32,851 bases of DNA from an uncultured Eubacterium sp. (GTDB lineage Bacteria > Bacillota > Clostridia > Lachnospirales > Lachnospiraceae), in the NCBI GenBank assembly GCA_947384955.1, contig CANDJC010000046.1:1-32851 (forward strand), read 5' to 3'. Shown here one piece after another: positions 86 to 32,851 of the stretch; the stretch's first letter is position 1; every line of letters begins with the position of its first letter. The notes below the pieces were generated by a model. It saw nothing but the letters and a program-made list of their open reading frames with translations. It made no database searches and was not told the origin of the DNA. Made by a program: the position numbers and the translations under genes.

Positions 86-91
86 TGTTTT

Positions 92-235
92 CTGGCTGGT
101 GTTACATGAGACACTTCGGGTGCTGCACGGATATCCTGGCTGGTGTTACATGAGATATTTTGGGTGCTGTACGGATGTTCTGGCTGGTGTTACATGAGAC
201 ATTTCGGGTGCTGTACGGATATGTTTGAGCGATAG
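92..235 (+). repeat. Three 44-bp tandem units readable as overlapping mini-ORFs (locus i)
   Basis: Units start at 92, 136 and 180 with an exact 44-bp period and no indels. Each contains GGTGTTACATGA, a weak GGTG Shine-Dalgarno a few bases before ATG. The mini-ORFs are 106-153 (MRHFGCCTDILAGVT), 150-197 (MRYFGCCTDVLAGVT) and 194-235 (MRHFGCCTDMFER). Each stop overlaps the next start as ATGA. Differences between units fall at first and third codon positions only. Translation is an inference; the repeat itself is certain. Confidence 0.8.
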
Positions 236-306: not shown

Positions 307-403
307 GCCGGGTGACGGGAAGATGCAGCGGCTTCCTGTGACATTCCGGAGCCGTCACAGGAAGCCGCTGCATCTTCCCGTCACCCGGCGTCCGAGTGGC
401 CAC
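307..403. repeat. Compact palindromic element with outer boundary motif (right end of locus i)
   Basis: A perfect 36-bp stem (307-342 with 354-389) around an 11-base loop. It has the same outer arm as the long elements ('GTGACGGG' subtype), but the roughly 160-base branched core is missing, as if deleted. On the right it ends in the boundary motif at 389-403 (reverse strand GTGGC-CACT-CGGACG). It points the opposite way to the half element at 1-85, so locus (i) is closed by outward-facing palindromes. Confidence 0.9.
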
Positions 404-13056: not shown

Positions 13057-13644
13057 ATGGGAAGAAAAGTCAGGGGACTTCAGTTTGGAAGAAAAAAGGA
13101 ACATAAGGTGAATCTGTCCCTGTTTCAGGAAGTTCTAATCTGGATACTGGAAATTGCCATTACGATTGCGATTGCACTCGTATTTACGTATTTCTTCGGT
13201 GTGCGTTCTGCTGTCATCGGGCCTTCGATGTCGCCGCAGTTAGACGACGGGGATGAAGTGCTGATTGACCGGTTTTCCTATAAGTTTATATCTCCCAAAC
13301 CCGGGGATATTATTGCATTTCTGCCAAACGGAAATACAAATACCCATTATTATATGAAGCGGATTATTGCGGTTCCCGGCGATACGGTGCAGATTACAGA
13401 CGGAATCGTGTACGTGAATGAGGAAGAATATATAGAGGAAACCCAGGTCAGCCGCATGGAGGACGCCGGTATCGCAAAGGATAAAATCACATTAGGGGAA
13501 GATGAATATTTTGTGCTGGGGGATAACCGCAATAACAGCGAAGACAGCAGGTTTGCAAATATTGGCTGTGTGAAAGAGGAGTATATTATTGGCAAGGCGT
13601 GGTTTGTTGTATCGCCGCGGCACAAATTCGGCCTGATGCAGTAA
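13057..13644 (+). CDS. lepB: Signal peptidase I (first copy)
   Basis: 195 aa. It removes signal peptides from exported proteins at the outer face of the membrane. One N-terminal membrane anchor (about 25-48) precedes the catalytic region with nucleophile Ser57 in IGPSMSPQLDDGDEV, general base Lys101 in YYMKRIIAVPGD, and the conserved box VLGDNRNNSEDSR. The N-terminus is basic (MGRKVRGLQFGRKKEHK), as expected for the cytoplasmic side. The ribosome binding site is AAGGAAAG. It is the first of two lepB genes flanking rbgA. Confidence 0.97.
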   Translation: MGRKVRGLQFGRKKEHKVNLSLFQEVLIWILEIAITIAIALVFTYFFGVRSAVIGPSMSPQLDDGDEVLIDRFSYKFISPKPGDIIAFLPNGNTNTHYYMKRIIAVPGDTVQITDGIVYVNEEEYIEETQVSRMEDAGIAKDKITLGEDEYFVLGDNRNNSEDSRFANIGCVKEEYIIGKAWFVVSPRHKFGLMQ

Positions 13645-14536: not shown

Positions 14537-15145
14537 ATGAAGGCTATTTTTAAAGAAATCATCAGTCTGTGTCTTTATCTGGCCATTATTTTAGGCTGCA
14601 CGTATCTGACGGTCCATTATGCGGTGCAGCGTACGGAAATTGAAGGGGCTTCCATGGAGCCGGCCCTTTATCACGGCGACCAGATTCTTGTGGACAAGCT
14701 GACATACCGTTTCAGGGAACCGAAGCGGTATGAAATTATCGCGTTTCCATACCGGTATGAGCAGGATACCTATTATGTGAAGCGGATTATCGGCCTGCCA
14801 GGGGAAAAAGTACGGATTGATGCACAGGGAACGATTTTTATTAACGAGGAAGCACTGGATGAAAATTATGGCATAGAGCCTCTCAGCCAGCCGGGATATG
14901 CGTCTTCGCCGAGGATATTAGGAGAAGATGAATATTTTGTGCTGGGGGATAACCGCAATGACAGTATCGACAGCCGCTCGGCTGAGGTGGGGATGGTACG
15001 CCGCCAGGAAATTATCGGAAAGGCGTTTTTTCGGATATATCCGTTTTCGGCTGCCGGTACGATTCACTCTGCCGCAGACGGAAAAAATGCAAAAGACGGC
15101 GGGTCTGCACAGGCAGGCACAGCCGGGCAGGAGAATACAGAATGA
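14537..15145 (+). CDS. lepB: Signal peptidase I (second copy)
   Basis: 202 aa. One membrane anchor (about 7-28), nucleophile Ser39 in IEGASMEPALYHGDQI, base Lys82 in YYVKRIIGLPGE, and the VLGDNRNDSIDSR box. It has only a short N-terminus, and a Gly/Ala-rich tail (NAKDGGSAQAGTAGQENTE) follows the catalytic domain; the first copy lacks this tail. It lies 18 bp after rbgA and overlaps rnhB by 4 bp (ATGA), so it is cotranslated with both. Confidence 0.97.
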   Translation: MKAIFKEIISLCLYLAIILGCTYLTVHYAVQRTEIEGASMEPALYHGDQILVDKLTYRFREPKRYEIIAFPYRYEQDTYYVKRIIGLPGEKVRIDAQGTIFINEEALDENYGIEPLSQPGYASSPRILGEDEYFVLGDNRNDSIDSRSAEVGMVRRQEIIGKAFFRIYPFSAAGTIHSAADGKNAKDGGSAQAGTAGQENTE

Positions 15146-18571: not shown

Positions 18572-18594
18572 GGGGGGGGAGTGGCTGCGCGGAC

Positions 18595-18835
18595 GCCGGG
18601 TGACGGGGAGATGCACTGGCTTCCTGTGACGGCTCCAGAATGTTAAGAATCCCTAAGCGTTCTGCATTTACGCTGTGGCACCGGACGGACGCGGCACCTA
18701 GTTCGCCCTGGCCTGCAGCCAGCAGCTAAAGGTGCCGCTGCGGCTTCGCCGCCTGTTTTTTGAAGCAGAAAGCTAAGGGATTCTAAACATTCTTCCAATG
18801 TCACAGGAAGCCAGTGCATCTCCCCGTCACCCGGC
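18595..18835 (+). repeat. Long palindromic element, full length ('GTGACGGG' arm subtype)
   Basis: 241 bases. The outer arms form a perfect 36-bp stem (18595-18630 with 18800-18835). An inner stem of about 28 bp with few mismatches follows (about 18637-18665 with 18765-18795). The apical part is GC-rich and branched, with the small hairpin GGCGGCGAAGCCGC (on the minus strand) and GGTGCCG/CGGCACC pairs. The 3' side is followed by CTGGTTTT. It could be a structured RNA or a folded single-strand DNA element. Confidence 0.9.
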
Positions 18836-18908
18836 TGGTTTTCGTATGCTTTACGTGAAGAAATGCAGGTGATGGGGGGATTTTTTTTATGGAAGACCTG
18901 CGGTGAAG

Positions 18909-19415
18909 GTGTGCTGGGAAGTTTTCATGAAAGGCTTGTGGTGAAGATGAGCTGGAAAGCCTTAATGGAGAGCCTGCGGTAAAGATGAGCTGGAAAGTTT
19001 TAATGGAGGGCTTGCAGTAAAGATATGCTGGAAAGATTTAATGGAAGGGTTATGGTAAAGATGAGCTGGAAAGCCTTAATGGAGAGCCTGCGGTAAAGAT
19101 GAGCTGGAAAGTTTTAATGGAGGGCTTGCAGTAAAGATGTACTGGAAAGATTTAATGGAAGGCCTATGGTAAAGATGAGCTGGAAAGCTTTCATGAAAGG
19201 CTTATGGTAAAGATGAGCTGGAAAGCTTTCATGAAAGGCTTGCGGTAAAGATGAGCTGAAAAGCTTTCATGAAAGGCTTGCGGTAAAGATGAGCTGGAAA
19301 GCTTTAATGTAAGGCTTATGGTAAAGATGAGCTGGAAAGCTTTCATGAAAGGATTATGGTAAAGATGAGCTGAAAAGCTTTAATGTAAGGCTTGCAGTGA
19401 AGATGCACTGGAAAG
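18909..19415 (+). repeat. 38-bp tandem array, 13 full units plus a partial one
   Basis: Units start at 18909 and every 38 bp to 19365, with no indels; a partial unit begins at 19403. Units 2-4 and 5-7 form a duplicated 114-bp block. Read from each ATG (or GTG), most units give an 11-residue mini-ORF such as MSWKAFMKGLR, MSWKALMESLR or MYWKDLMEGLW, ending in TAA two bases before the next ATG. Units 10, 11 and 13 have early stops, and unit 4 starts with ATA. Newer units contain the palindrome CTTTCATGAAAG. Confidence 0.92.
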
Positions 19416-19651
19416 GCAGCTGACGGTTACGGGGCTGATTCGTCAGGGATTTGTTCTGAATGGATTTTTAATGGGCAAATGGAATCTGGTTTGTACTTGT
19501 AAACCGGTTATATAAAGTAAGTGGTGAGATAGATTATAATTATTTGGACGTAACTGCGAGCCTTAAAATCGCATAGACGAATCTTAAAACCTTCCGCAGG
19601 AAATGTATTGCCTCATTACATAATGTTACATGTAAATCCTTGCGAAAACCA

Positions 19652-19889
19652 GCCGGGAGAGGGGAGATGCACGGTCTTTCAGGGGCATTGGAAGAATGTT
19701 TAGAAGCCCTTAGTATTCTGCTCAAAAAACAGGCGGCGAAGCCGCAGCGGCACCTTTAGCTGCTGGCTGCAGGCCAGGGCGAACTAGGTGCCGCGTCCGT
19801 CCGGTGCCACAGCGTAAATGCAGAATACTTAGGGCTTCTTAACATTCTGGAGCCGCCCCTGAAGGACCGTGCATCTCCCCTCTCCTGGC
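19652..19889 (-). repeat. Long palindromic element, full length ('GAGAGGGG' arm subtype), inverted
   Basis: The arms 19652-19686 and 19855-19889 pair over 35 positions with two G-T wobbles. The core is close to that of 18595-18835 (GCGGCGAAGCCGCAGCGGCA), but the outer arms differ at many positions, always on both sides. Its orientation is opposite to the copy at 18595, so both boundary motifs face outward. Confidence 0.9.
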
Positions 19890-19903
19890 GTCCGCGCAGC
19901 CAC

Positions 19904-23484: not shown

Positions 23485-23512
23485 TGCAGGGGAGGTTTGT
23501 GGCCCTGCGGAC

Positions 23513-23543
23513 GCCGGGAGAGGGGATTTGCACGGTCTTCCGG
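23513..23543 (+). repeat. Solo left arm of a palindromic element
   Basis: A 31-base left arm of the 'GAGAGGGG' subtype fused directly to the sequence that normally follows the right arm (GCTGATTT). The core and right arm appear deleted, probably through the CCGGC shared at both points. It pairs with the solo right arm at 23791-23822 with two wobbles and one bulge. Confidence 0.75.
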
Positions 23544-23564
23544 CTGATTTATGGGTGGTGTTAC

Positions 23565-23618
23565 ATGAAATGGGTGGAAAGCAGTGCAGATGTTTTATTG
23601 GCAGCAGTTAATGGATAA
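23565..23618 (+). other. Mini-ORF MKWVESSADVLLAAVNG (module 1)
   Basis: A 17-codon frame after GGTGGTGTTAC-ATG. The module 2 copy at 23843-23896 reads MKWVESGSDILLAAVNG and has a strong GGGAGGTG site. A third copy near 24119 is broken by TAG at codon 3. The peptides align with the 44-bp units of locus (i) (CTDILAGV against ADVLLAAV). Translation is unproven. Confidence 0.35.
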
Positions 23619-23621
23619 TCA

Positions 23622-23726
23622 GAGATGAGAAGACAGTTTGCAGTGCATACGGTACTGAAATGAAAAGACAGTTTGCAGTGCATACAGCATTGAAATGAAA
23701 AGATTGTTTACATTGTATGCAGTATT
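23622..23726 (+). repeat. Three 35-bp tandem units (module 1)
   Basis: Units start at 23622, 23657 and 23692. The first two read as 12-codon mini-ORFs (MRRQFAVHTVLK, MKRQFAVHTALK), each ending in an ATGA overlap with the next; the third (MKRLFTLYAVFQ) runs on for 64 codons. Confidence 0.85.
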
Positions 23727-23790
23727 TCAGGTAAAGTTATTGAAAACTTTCGGGCAGGTTTCCGAAGATTTTGAATATTTTTCCAAACAG

Positions 23791-23822
23791 CCGGAAGACC
23801 GTGCAAGTCCCCCTCTCCTGGC
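23791..23822 (+). repeat. Solo right arm of a palindromic element
   Basis: A right arm without core, between module 1 and module 2. It is followed by GCTGATTTGTGGGAGGTG, which gives module 2 its Shine-Dalgarno-like site. Confidence 0.75.
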
Positions 23823-23842
23823 TGATTTGTGGGAGGTGTTAC

Positions 23843-23896
23843 ATGAAATGGGTGGAAAGCGGTTCAGATATTTTATTGGCAGCAGTTAATGGATAA
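23843..23896 (+). other. Mini-ORF MKWVESGSDILLAAVNG (module 2)
   Basis: A 17-codon frame with GGGAGGTG 4 bases before ATG, the best ribosome binding site in any of the repeat loci. Compared with module 1, the amino-acid changes are S to G, A to S and V to I, all from first-position substitutions. Confidence 0.4.
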
Positions 23897-23899
23897 TCA

Positions 23900-24004
23900 G
23901 AGATGAAAAGATTGTTTACAGTGCATGCAGTTCAGAGATGAAAAGACAGTTTGCAATGCATGCAGTTTTGAAATGAAAAGATTGTTTACAGTGCATGCAG
24001 TATT
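23900..24004 (+). repeat. Three 35-bp tandem units (module 2)
   Basis: Units start at 23900, 23935 and 23970. They read MKRLFTVHAVQR, MKRQFAMHAVLK and MKRLFTVHAVFQ; the first two end with ATGA overlaps. They parallel 23622-23726 with an exact 278-bp offset. Confidence 0.85.
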
Positions 24005-24235
24005 TCAGGTAAAGCTATTGAAAACTTTCGGGCAGGTTTCCAAATACTTTGAAGTATTTCTCCAGACATGCCGCCAGAAAACTGCGCCAGACTTTTTTCC
24101 AGCTGATTTATGGTAGGTGACATGAAATAGCTCAAAAACACTGCAGCTATTTTATCAGCAGCGGTTACATCCACTCTGACAAGTAAAAATTTCCACACCG
24201 CCAACACTCTTTCATGTAAAACTCTGCCAAAACCA

Positions 24236-24469
24236 GCCGGGTGGCGGGAAGATGCACTGGCTTCCTGTGACATTGGAGGAATGTTTAGAATCCCTTGGCA
24301 TTCTGCTCAAAAAACAGGCGGCGAAGCCGCAGCGGCACCGGCAGCCCGCTGAGCCAGGGCGAATAGGTGCCGCGTCCGTCCGGTGCCACAGCCTGGAAGC
24401 AGAATGCCTAGGGATTCTTAACATTCCGGAGCCGTCACAGGAAGCCAGTGCATCTTCCCGTCACCCGGC
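24236..24469 (-). repeat. Long palindromic element, full length ('GTG-CGGG' arm subtype), inverted
   Basis: The arms 24236-24271 and 24434-24469 pair over 36 positions with one G-T wobble. An inner stem (AATGTTTAGAATCCCTTGGC with its partner at about 24402-24425) and the GC-rich apical region follow, as in the copy at 18595, with a slightly shorter loop. It is oriented with its boundary motif to the right. Confidence 0.9.
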
Positions 24470-24561
24470 GTCCGAGAGGCCACCCCCCCTTTCATTCAAA
24501 TTCCTCGCAATCCCCCATTCTGCTTCTCTTCACCCGCACATTCTTTCATAAAATATCATTT

Positions 24562-32740: not shown

Positions 32741-32851
32741 GTGGCTCCGCGGACGCCGGGAGAGGGGATTTGCCCGGTCTTCCTGCGGCGGCTCCAGAAT
32801 GTTAAGAATCCCTAAGCATTCTGCATTTACGCAGTGGCCCCGGACGGTCGC
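32741..32851 (+). repeat. Start of composite repeat locus (iv), cut by the window edge
   Basis: A G run and the boundary motif GTGGC-TCCG-CGGACG (32741-32755) lead into a left arm of the 'GAGAGGGG' subtype (32755-32789) and half of the core (to the GGACGG near the apex). The right half is outside. The arm is exactly complementary to the one at 51-85. Confidence 0.88.

Follow-up and report, generated by a model that had tools for sequence, protein, structure and literature searches.

Why do long palindromes in the genome of an uncultured Eubacterium sp. differ from copy to copy while the two arms of each copy stay paired, and what are these palindromes? The question is raised by a hairpin in the middle of the window, which here means the whole stretch of 32,851 nucleotides that was analysed. 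The palindromes are probably the end modules of non-coding, MITE-like mobile elements, with outer-stem arms that are rewritten by hairpin-templated copying. The modules come in pairs, lie between genes and are related to the TwoAYGGAY motif, and in other lineages their relatives are framed by terminal inverted repeats and target duplications. Each module would form a DNA hairpin of about 240 nt, in which an outer stem some 32 bp long is followed by an asymmetric internal loop, then by a mid stem whose unpaired As are conserved, and finally by a branched head. The modules would be spread by a transposase acting in trans. Within the outer stem, template switching or quasi-palindrome correction would repeatedly copy the sequence of one arm onto the other and so turn single mutations into paired changes without selection on an RNA. 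Mid stem and head are conserved and may serve a separate function.

A repeat search of the window recovered the inverted arm pairs at the places given by the initial annotation, which had been made from the letters of the window (Table 1). The half copies at both window ends (repeat matches 1-85 and 32755-32851) and the solo arms near 23513 and 23785 were borne out as well. The hairpin of the A-type at the left of composite 2 is built from an outer stem, an internal loop, a mid stem and a branched head. Two properties of the stems had not been mentioned before: an asymmetric internal loop recurs in the aligned copies, and an A opposite an A is identical in 16 of 16 sequences of the wider alignment. 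Since both recur in aligned copies, either correction, if it takes place, stops at the internal loop and the A-A position or selection keeps both. The compact form without a core, like the solo arms, seems to derive from the same hairpin plan by deletion. Elsewhere in the window, a tRNA gene (501-573) adjoins composite 1, and the open reading frames at 13057-13644 and 14537-15145, which have repeats D11 and D13 in common, are signal-peptidase-I-like by eye.

Table 1. Palindromes, composites and repeats in the window (positions of the window; A and B are the two stem types)
Feature	Position	Strand	Description
B-type hairpin, inner half, cut by contig end	1..102	+	left end of composite 1
Tandem repeat, 44 bp, 3 copies, composite 1 spacer	90..222	+	made of inner-end sequence
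Compact A-type hairpin	307..389	-	arms 307-342/354-389, 36 bp, 100%; 11-nt loop; without core; right end of composite 1
Composite 2	18580..19903	.	two hairpins in inverted orientation plus spacer; flanking genes by eye yraN-like and GGDEF-like
A-type hairpin, composite 2 (the hairpin under study)	18595..18835	+	arms 18595-18665/18765-18835, 71 nt, 87%
Tandem repeat, 38 bp, 14 copies, composite 2 spacer	18885..19415	+	
B-type hairpin, composite 2, inverted	19652..19889	-	arms 19652-19721/19820-19889, 70 nt, 86%
Composite 3	23496..24483	.	B-type end in reduced form, spacer with repeats, complete A-type hairpin
Solo arm, remnant of B-type hairpin	23513..23544	+	inverted-repeat matches
Tandem duplication, 278 bp, composite 3 spacer	23542..24073	+	carries second solo arm at ~23767-23839
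A-type hairpin, composite 3, inverted	24236..24469	-	arms 24236-24307/24398-24469, 72 nt, 88%
B-type hairpin, outer half, cut by contig end	32740..32851	+	left end of composite 4

The window belongs to a draft genome of 5.06 Mb in 271 contigs (G000), which holds at least 40 full-length copies at 89-100% identity, 40 having been scored out of 437 first-look candidates. With so many copies at such identity, the hairpins are not a product of chance. They are present in 8 of the 13 genomes of the genus, and the same search gave no match in any of 28 more distant genomes. No copies were found on phages, plasmids or viral contigs, the viral scan having used a single exact pattern. An aspect absent from the initial annotation is that the hairpins are paired in inverted orientation around spacers that are rich in tandem repeats. 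Looking only for the order plus then minus and within a limit of 3 kb, we counted 46 composites in which a hairpin is followed, after 32-2438 bp, by a second, inverted one. These composites are 0.4-3.0 kb long (median 774 bp). When neighbouring hairpin matches up to 1.5 kb apart were tallied in any order, 56 were '+-', six '--', two '++' and none '-+'. Parvovirus-like terminal hairpin replication, which such hairpin ends call to mind, was rejected since the lack of '-+' neighbours within 1.5 kb leaves no sign of flipped ends.

The two stems of a composite tend to be of different kinds. The own genome has a mean distance of 22.7 between the left stem and the right stem of an element, compared with 5.8 between a stem and the closest stem in other elements, and the distance within an element was also the larger one in the other genomes compared. 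By eye, 19 of 20 subfamily-1 pairs in the own genome combine one A-type with one B-type stem (L010 being A and A, and L021 being taken as B-like). An automatic split into two clusters gave heterotypic pairs in 0 of 24 cases in the own genome, 1 of 2 in G002, 2 of 2 in G003, 1 of 10 in G005, 2 of 4 in G008, 7 of 7 in G009 and 1 of 7 in G010. This clustering separates two clear stem types in G009 and G003 only; what it set apart in the own genome was subfamily 2.

To the initial annotation, the palindromes matched no named family. This stands for the window copies themselves, which stay below the Rfam cut-off and gave no TwoAYGGAY match, also when a window copy was scanned alone; it does not stand for their relatives in other genera, nor for the one scanned locus of subfamily 2 of the own genome. 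The Rfam model of TwoAYGGAY (RF01731, clan CL00106) spans 168 positions and has a gathering cut-off of 43 bits. Among 200 genomes of the bacterial family, our model R1, built from the core of 35 genus copies, found matches in seven: the own genome and one genome from each of six other genera. Outside the genus, it identified 12 loci in these six genera, which share the plan of the hairpin and have unrelated outer stems; 10 of the 12 are TwoAYGGAY above the Rfam cut-off. A second model, R2, gave matches in at least 17 of 299 family genomes and, in a class-wide sample, in at least 1 of 291, namely the own genome; as nine candidates were scored per genome under strict filters, these counts and the negatives are lower bounds. 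Seven of the eight R2 loci that were submitted to Rfam are TwoAYGGAY above the cut-off, and one R2 locus, L347, has a stem base with 30 of 30 positions paired. The R1 and R2 loci lacking an above-cut-off match are L310, L319 and L349, and further TwoAYGGAY matches lie at L345, L347, L411 and L413. Scores of the relatives of the window copies reach 95-130 bits. In the pairs L318 and L348, both hairpins match TwoAYGGAY, on opposite strands. At the one subfamily-2 locus of the own genome that was scanned (L111), both hairpins pass with 66.2 and 60.7 bits; at the one subfamily-1 locus scanned in the sister species (L150), one of two hairpins scored 38.3 bits (E 1.7e-4), just below the cut-off. The palindromes thus form a branch of the TwoAYGGAY hairpins that is divergent and rich in copies. 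The initial annotation had itself named a match to a described family as grounds against it, and its claim of novelty is weakened by these matches.

The palindromes and TwoAYGGAY have the mid stem in common, as well as the forked head and its two hairpins. The 168-position Rfam model, on the other hand, does not extend to the long variable outer stem, the terminal repeats or the arrangement in composites. Among 16 sequences, the mid stem common to the relatives shows a both-sided change at 12 of 17 pairs. Inverted 12-mers in this mid stem had suggested a dif-like or integron attC-like site, an idea that was dropped because the mid stem is common to TwoAYGGAY. Two genera have a TwoAYGGAY hairpin (1497-1662 in both L313 and L315) that directly precedes an S10-Clostridia ribosomal leader, together with what is by eye an rpsJ gene.

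Given this relationship, the palindromes might be functional structured RNAs of the TwoAYGGAY type, proposed binders of CsrA, with the covariation being the result of compensatory RNA evolution. Rfam files TwoAYGGAY as RNA, and the high scores of the relatives speak for such a reading. The family was classed as a probable RNA without a cis-regulatory role (Weinberg 2010, PMC2864571), and a role as a CsrA sponge has been proposed (PMC4333381). The passages of this literature that we consulted present TwoAYGGAY as an RNA whose function is unknown or proposed, and a link to transposable elements does not occur in them. The loops on which the CsrA proposal depends are, however, nearly lost where copies are commonest. 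Among 168 genus copies, 2 have at least one CsrA-type ANGGA string in the head, compared with 16 of 18 Rfam-positive relatives and 2 of 5 subfamily-2 copies. The exact AYGGAY string is found twice in the head of none of the 168 genus copies and of 3 of the 18 Rfam-positive relatives. These counts refer to strings anywhere in the head, and the looser string and the control were added since exact AYGGAY is rarely doubled even in Rfam-positive relatives. Judged by these strings, GGA-type loops appear to be almost gone from the genus.

Covariation is standard evidence for a conserved RNA. In 33 diverse copies, 95.1% of the stem cells are paired, compared with 81.5% after shuffling; the first figure leans upward, as the structure was derived from the same alignment. 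Both-sided changes fill 262 cells in these copies, a value reached in none of 500 shuffles (75.8 ± 7.2), and sliding the partner columns by 1-3 positions leaves 37-46% paired. The fold is therefore maintained, as the initial annotation had concluded from the few copies in the window. Its statement that the arms always differ on both sides holds as a tendency: among 936 stem cells of 39 A-type copies of the own genome, paired changes prevail with 96 cases, but 11 changes are one-sided. Likewise, arms that pair perfectly or with only G-T wobbles are frequent, with a perfect 24-bp stem in 92 of 155 copies, whereas the 111 mismatches in the stems of these 155 copies, read from the outside in, comprise 31 G-T, 54 A-C and 26 others. 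The core, which had been described as more conserved than the arms, indeed diverges by 9.2% compared with 14.0% (35 A-type copies of the own genome).

The kind of changes bears on the cause of this pairing. If changes passed through G-U intermediates, transitions would be expected to dominate and G-U would greatly outnumber A-C on one strand. The 96 paired changes consist of 52 transitions and 44 transversions, and in the core 223 transitions stand beside 235 transversions. One-sided differences between close copies, on the other hand, are mostly transitions (374 vs 65). Read on the TwoAYGGAY strand, taken as the one opposite to the model match, the stems of 23 relatives contain 60 G-T and 72 A-C mismatches (p 0.34), thus no excess of G-U over A-C, and 273 others, a class that includes the internal loop and constant mismatches. 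In the outer stem of the genus, 54 G-U face 31 A-C on that strand (p 0.017, the copies being non-independent). The mid stem has a wobble bias towards that strand, with 101 G-U vs 37 A-C in 168 related copies, which fits some selection on RNA. With nearly half of the paired changes being transversions, with relatives free of a wobble excess and with the CsrA-type strings nearly lost from the genus, we consider it unlikely that RNA function accounts for the palindromes.

Selection on a DNA hairpin or cruciform, bound by a transposase or a host protein, could keep the arms paired with no copying from arm to arm. Symmetric mismatches suit DNA, and selection acting on both strands would yield them; moreover, the letters of the mid stem and its unpaired As have stayed the same between genera, in the manner of a binding site. 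However, paired transversions are about as frequent as paired transitions, and each would need two mutations via a poor intermediate, in many unlinked copies. This makes selection on DNA a somewhat unlikely cause of the paired arms.

Templated copying in the outer stem is favoured since the ratio of transitions to transversions among paired changes resembles that of the core and since no clear strand-specific wobble preference is seen. Of the two mechanisms offered in the initial annotation, selection for a structure and hairpin-templated repair, the outer-stem data therefore lean to the second, with selection on a DNA hairpin also being possible. We infer that the paired arms are best explained by templated copying. 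A single template-switching event can turn the two arms of a hairpin into complements of each other, according to the parts of two reports that we consulted (PMC8794818, PMC7202029). The copying proposed here would be the same in this respect and differs in its setting: in these sources, such correction is described for RNA genes and for imperfect inverted repeats in general, whereas its substrate here would be a large number of long repeats in one genome. With many copies, stems that are kept paired and little or no wobble asymmetry, the palindromes offer a natural test case for RNA selection versus DNA templating. DNA copying may be the source of some covariation that is read as pointing to RNA.

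Signs of mobility come from relatives. In two other genera (G203 and G149), a 19-bp inverted repeat frames the hairpin. Directly outside these repeats, an exact 7-bp duplication was found in 12 of 29 distinct pairs (38 loci). This was by far the strongest signal of the 12 offsets and 9 lengths tried; 0.002 would be expected at equal base frequencies, and given the AT-richness of the sites and one duplication that consists of A only, the true expectation is somewhat higher. The full single-hairpin elements of G203 measure 272-276 bp between the two 19-bp repeats and are too short or too empty for a transposase gene of their own, as in MITEs. G203 also carries headless forms that are near-identical (97-98% and 94-96%) and lie at different sites; exact duplications flank 4 of 9 headless and 5 of 11 full forms. 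Because these short elements occur without a head at several sites in one genus, the head seems unnecessary for movement. A different terminal repeat, of 28 bp, is present in G007 and G010. G010 has 131 occurrences of it when up to 2 mismatches are allowed, compared with 0 in the reversed control, and it borders hairpins in 84 of 112 cases, with loci mostly chosen around hairpins. Its pairs have an exact 8-bp duplication in 3 of 19 cases and none at other lengths from 4 to 12. Relatives of the palindromes thus possess the terminal inverted repeats and target-site duplications that characterize MITEs, and the element group moves or has moved. On the right flanks of L301, L278 and L161, a common string like CTTAAGTNAATGACATTG lies just outside the 28-bp repeat and may be a preferred target or another repeat.

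For the own genome, the evidence is of another kind. None of 25 pairs showed a target duplication, the mean longest shared string being 5.24 compared with 5.21 in shuffled pairs. Recent movement in this genome is not supported, because duplications are lacking and the spacers are mostly unique. Occupied and empty sites can nevertheless be compared between species. The gap between yraN and the GGDEF gene, occupied by composite 2 in the window, is short and free of a hairpin match in G008 and G010, though both carry the family elsewhere; in G002 and G003, hairpin sequence follows yraN. Across orthologous positions, 19 rows have an element and 51 have none, which is an indication only, as the rows are non-independent and biased by the many loci that were chosen around hairpins. 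Sites common to several species could represent old elements that were kept vertically.

No transposase was found in the search for a mobilising enzyme, which covered the families Y1_Tnp and IS66 in draft genomes. The distribution of neither family tracks the hairpin-bearing genomes. IS66 had come into question since the 28-bp repeat has a GTAA start and an 8-bp duplication, both traits of IS66 elements. It was rejected because the drafts of G007, G009 and G010, which carry the 28-bp repeat, have no IS66 match; those of the own genome and G003 have none either. In addition, the IS66 ends seen in G004 agree in their first letters only. G004 itself, a 6.35-Mb contig of the same genus, differs greatly in its mobile load, with 91 IS66 and 54 Y1_Tnp matches and no hairpin match.

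An involvement of Y1 enzymes would be expected if the palindromes were very large REP or REPIN-type elements moved by a RAYT (Y1) transposase. Like REP dimers, as described in the part of the REP literature consulted (PMC3733652), the hairpins are intergenic and palindromic and come in inverted pairs. REPs, however, are only 20-40 bp long and carry an unpaired GTAG or CGTC tag (PMC3733652). The distribution was also unsuitable for a RAYT or Y1 mobiliser: the draft of G002 bears hairpins with no Y1_Tnp match, G004 shows the reverse, and no link between the hairpins and a Y1 transposase gene was seen. Target duplications of 7 and 8 bp are atypical of Y1 enzymes. Taken with the much greater length of the hairpins, these points make a REP-type origin highly improbable.

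The location of the elements could instead suggest that they act after genes, as transcription terminators, insulators or stabilisers of mRNA. According to simple ORF calls, the elements are intergenic, with a median distance of 72 bp to stop codons (n=87) and of 153 bp to start codons (n=73), and thus lie nearer to the former, which speaks for such a role. The orientations of flanking genes by the same calls (29 -E-, 26 +E+, 16 +E- and 9 -E+) are, however, near the background of the own genome (215, 241, 85 and 75, respectively). The terminal repeats and target duplications in relatives also show insertion, so that we regard a role after genes as very unlikely.

If the palindromes are end modules of mobile elements, the consequences would extend to the Rfam family. 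It is possible, and we put it forward tentatively, that TwoAYGGAY in one bacterial family is mainly a DNA hairpin of mobile elements, that its covariation stems largely from hairpin-templated copying, and that it is carried by elements whose terminal repeats differ by genus, with 7-bp or 8-bp duplications. This orphan RNA family with its CsrA-sponge hypothesis would then gain a genomic home in mobile elements. The fast evolution of the repeat could also help to distinguish strains of these gut bacteria.

In being non-coding and intergenic and in having terminal inverted repeats, the elements resemble MITEs such as BrickBuilt of Porphyromonas gingivalis, which has a minisatellite inside according to the portion of the report consulted (PMC4596501) and thereby parallels the tandem repeats of the spacers here. 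They differ in that their ends are branched hairpins of about 240 nt and of two types, with stems that pair almost perfectly within a copy and vary from copy to copy. Tandem repeats are abundant in many spacers, and one spacer contains several short open reading frames. About 100 bp of related sequence lies inside the otherwise unrelated spacers of L005, L018, L024, L026 and L028, perhaps another small element. Two long composites (L097 8806-11789 and L096 9609-10997) have spacer open reading frames that by eye resemble a toxin-antitoxin pair of the RelE/ParE type and an acetyltransferase.
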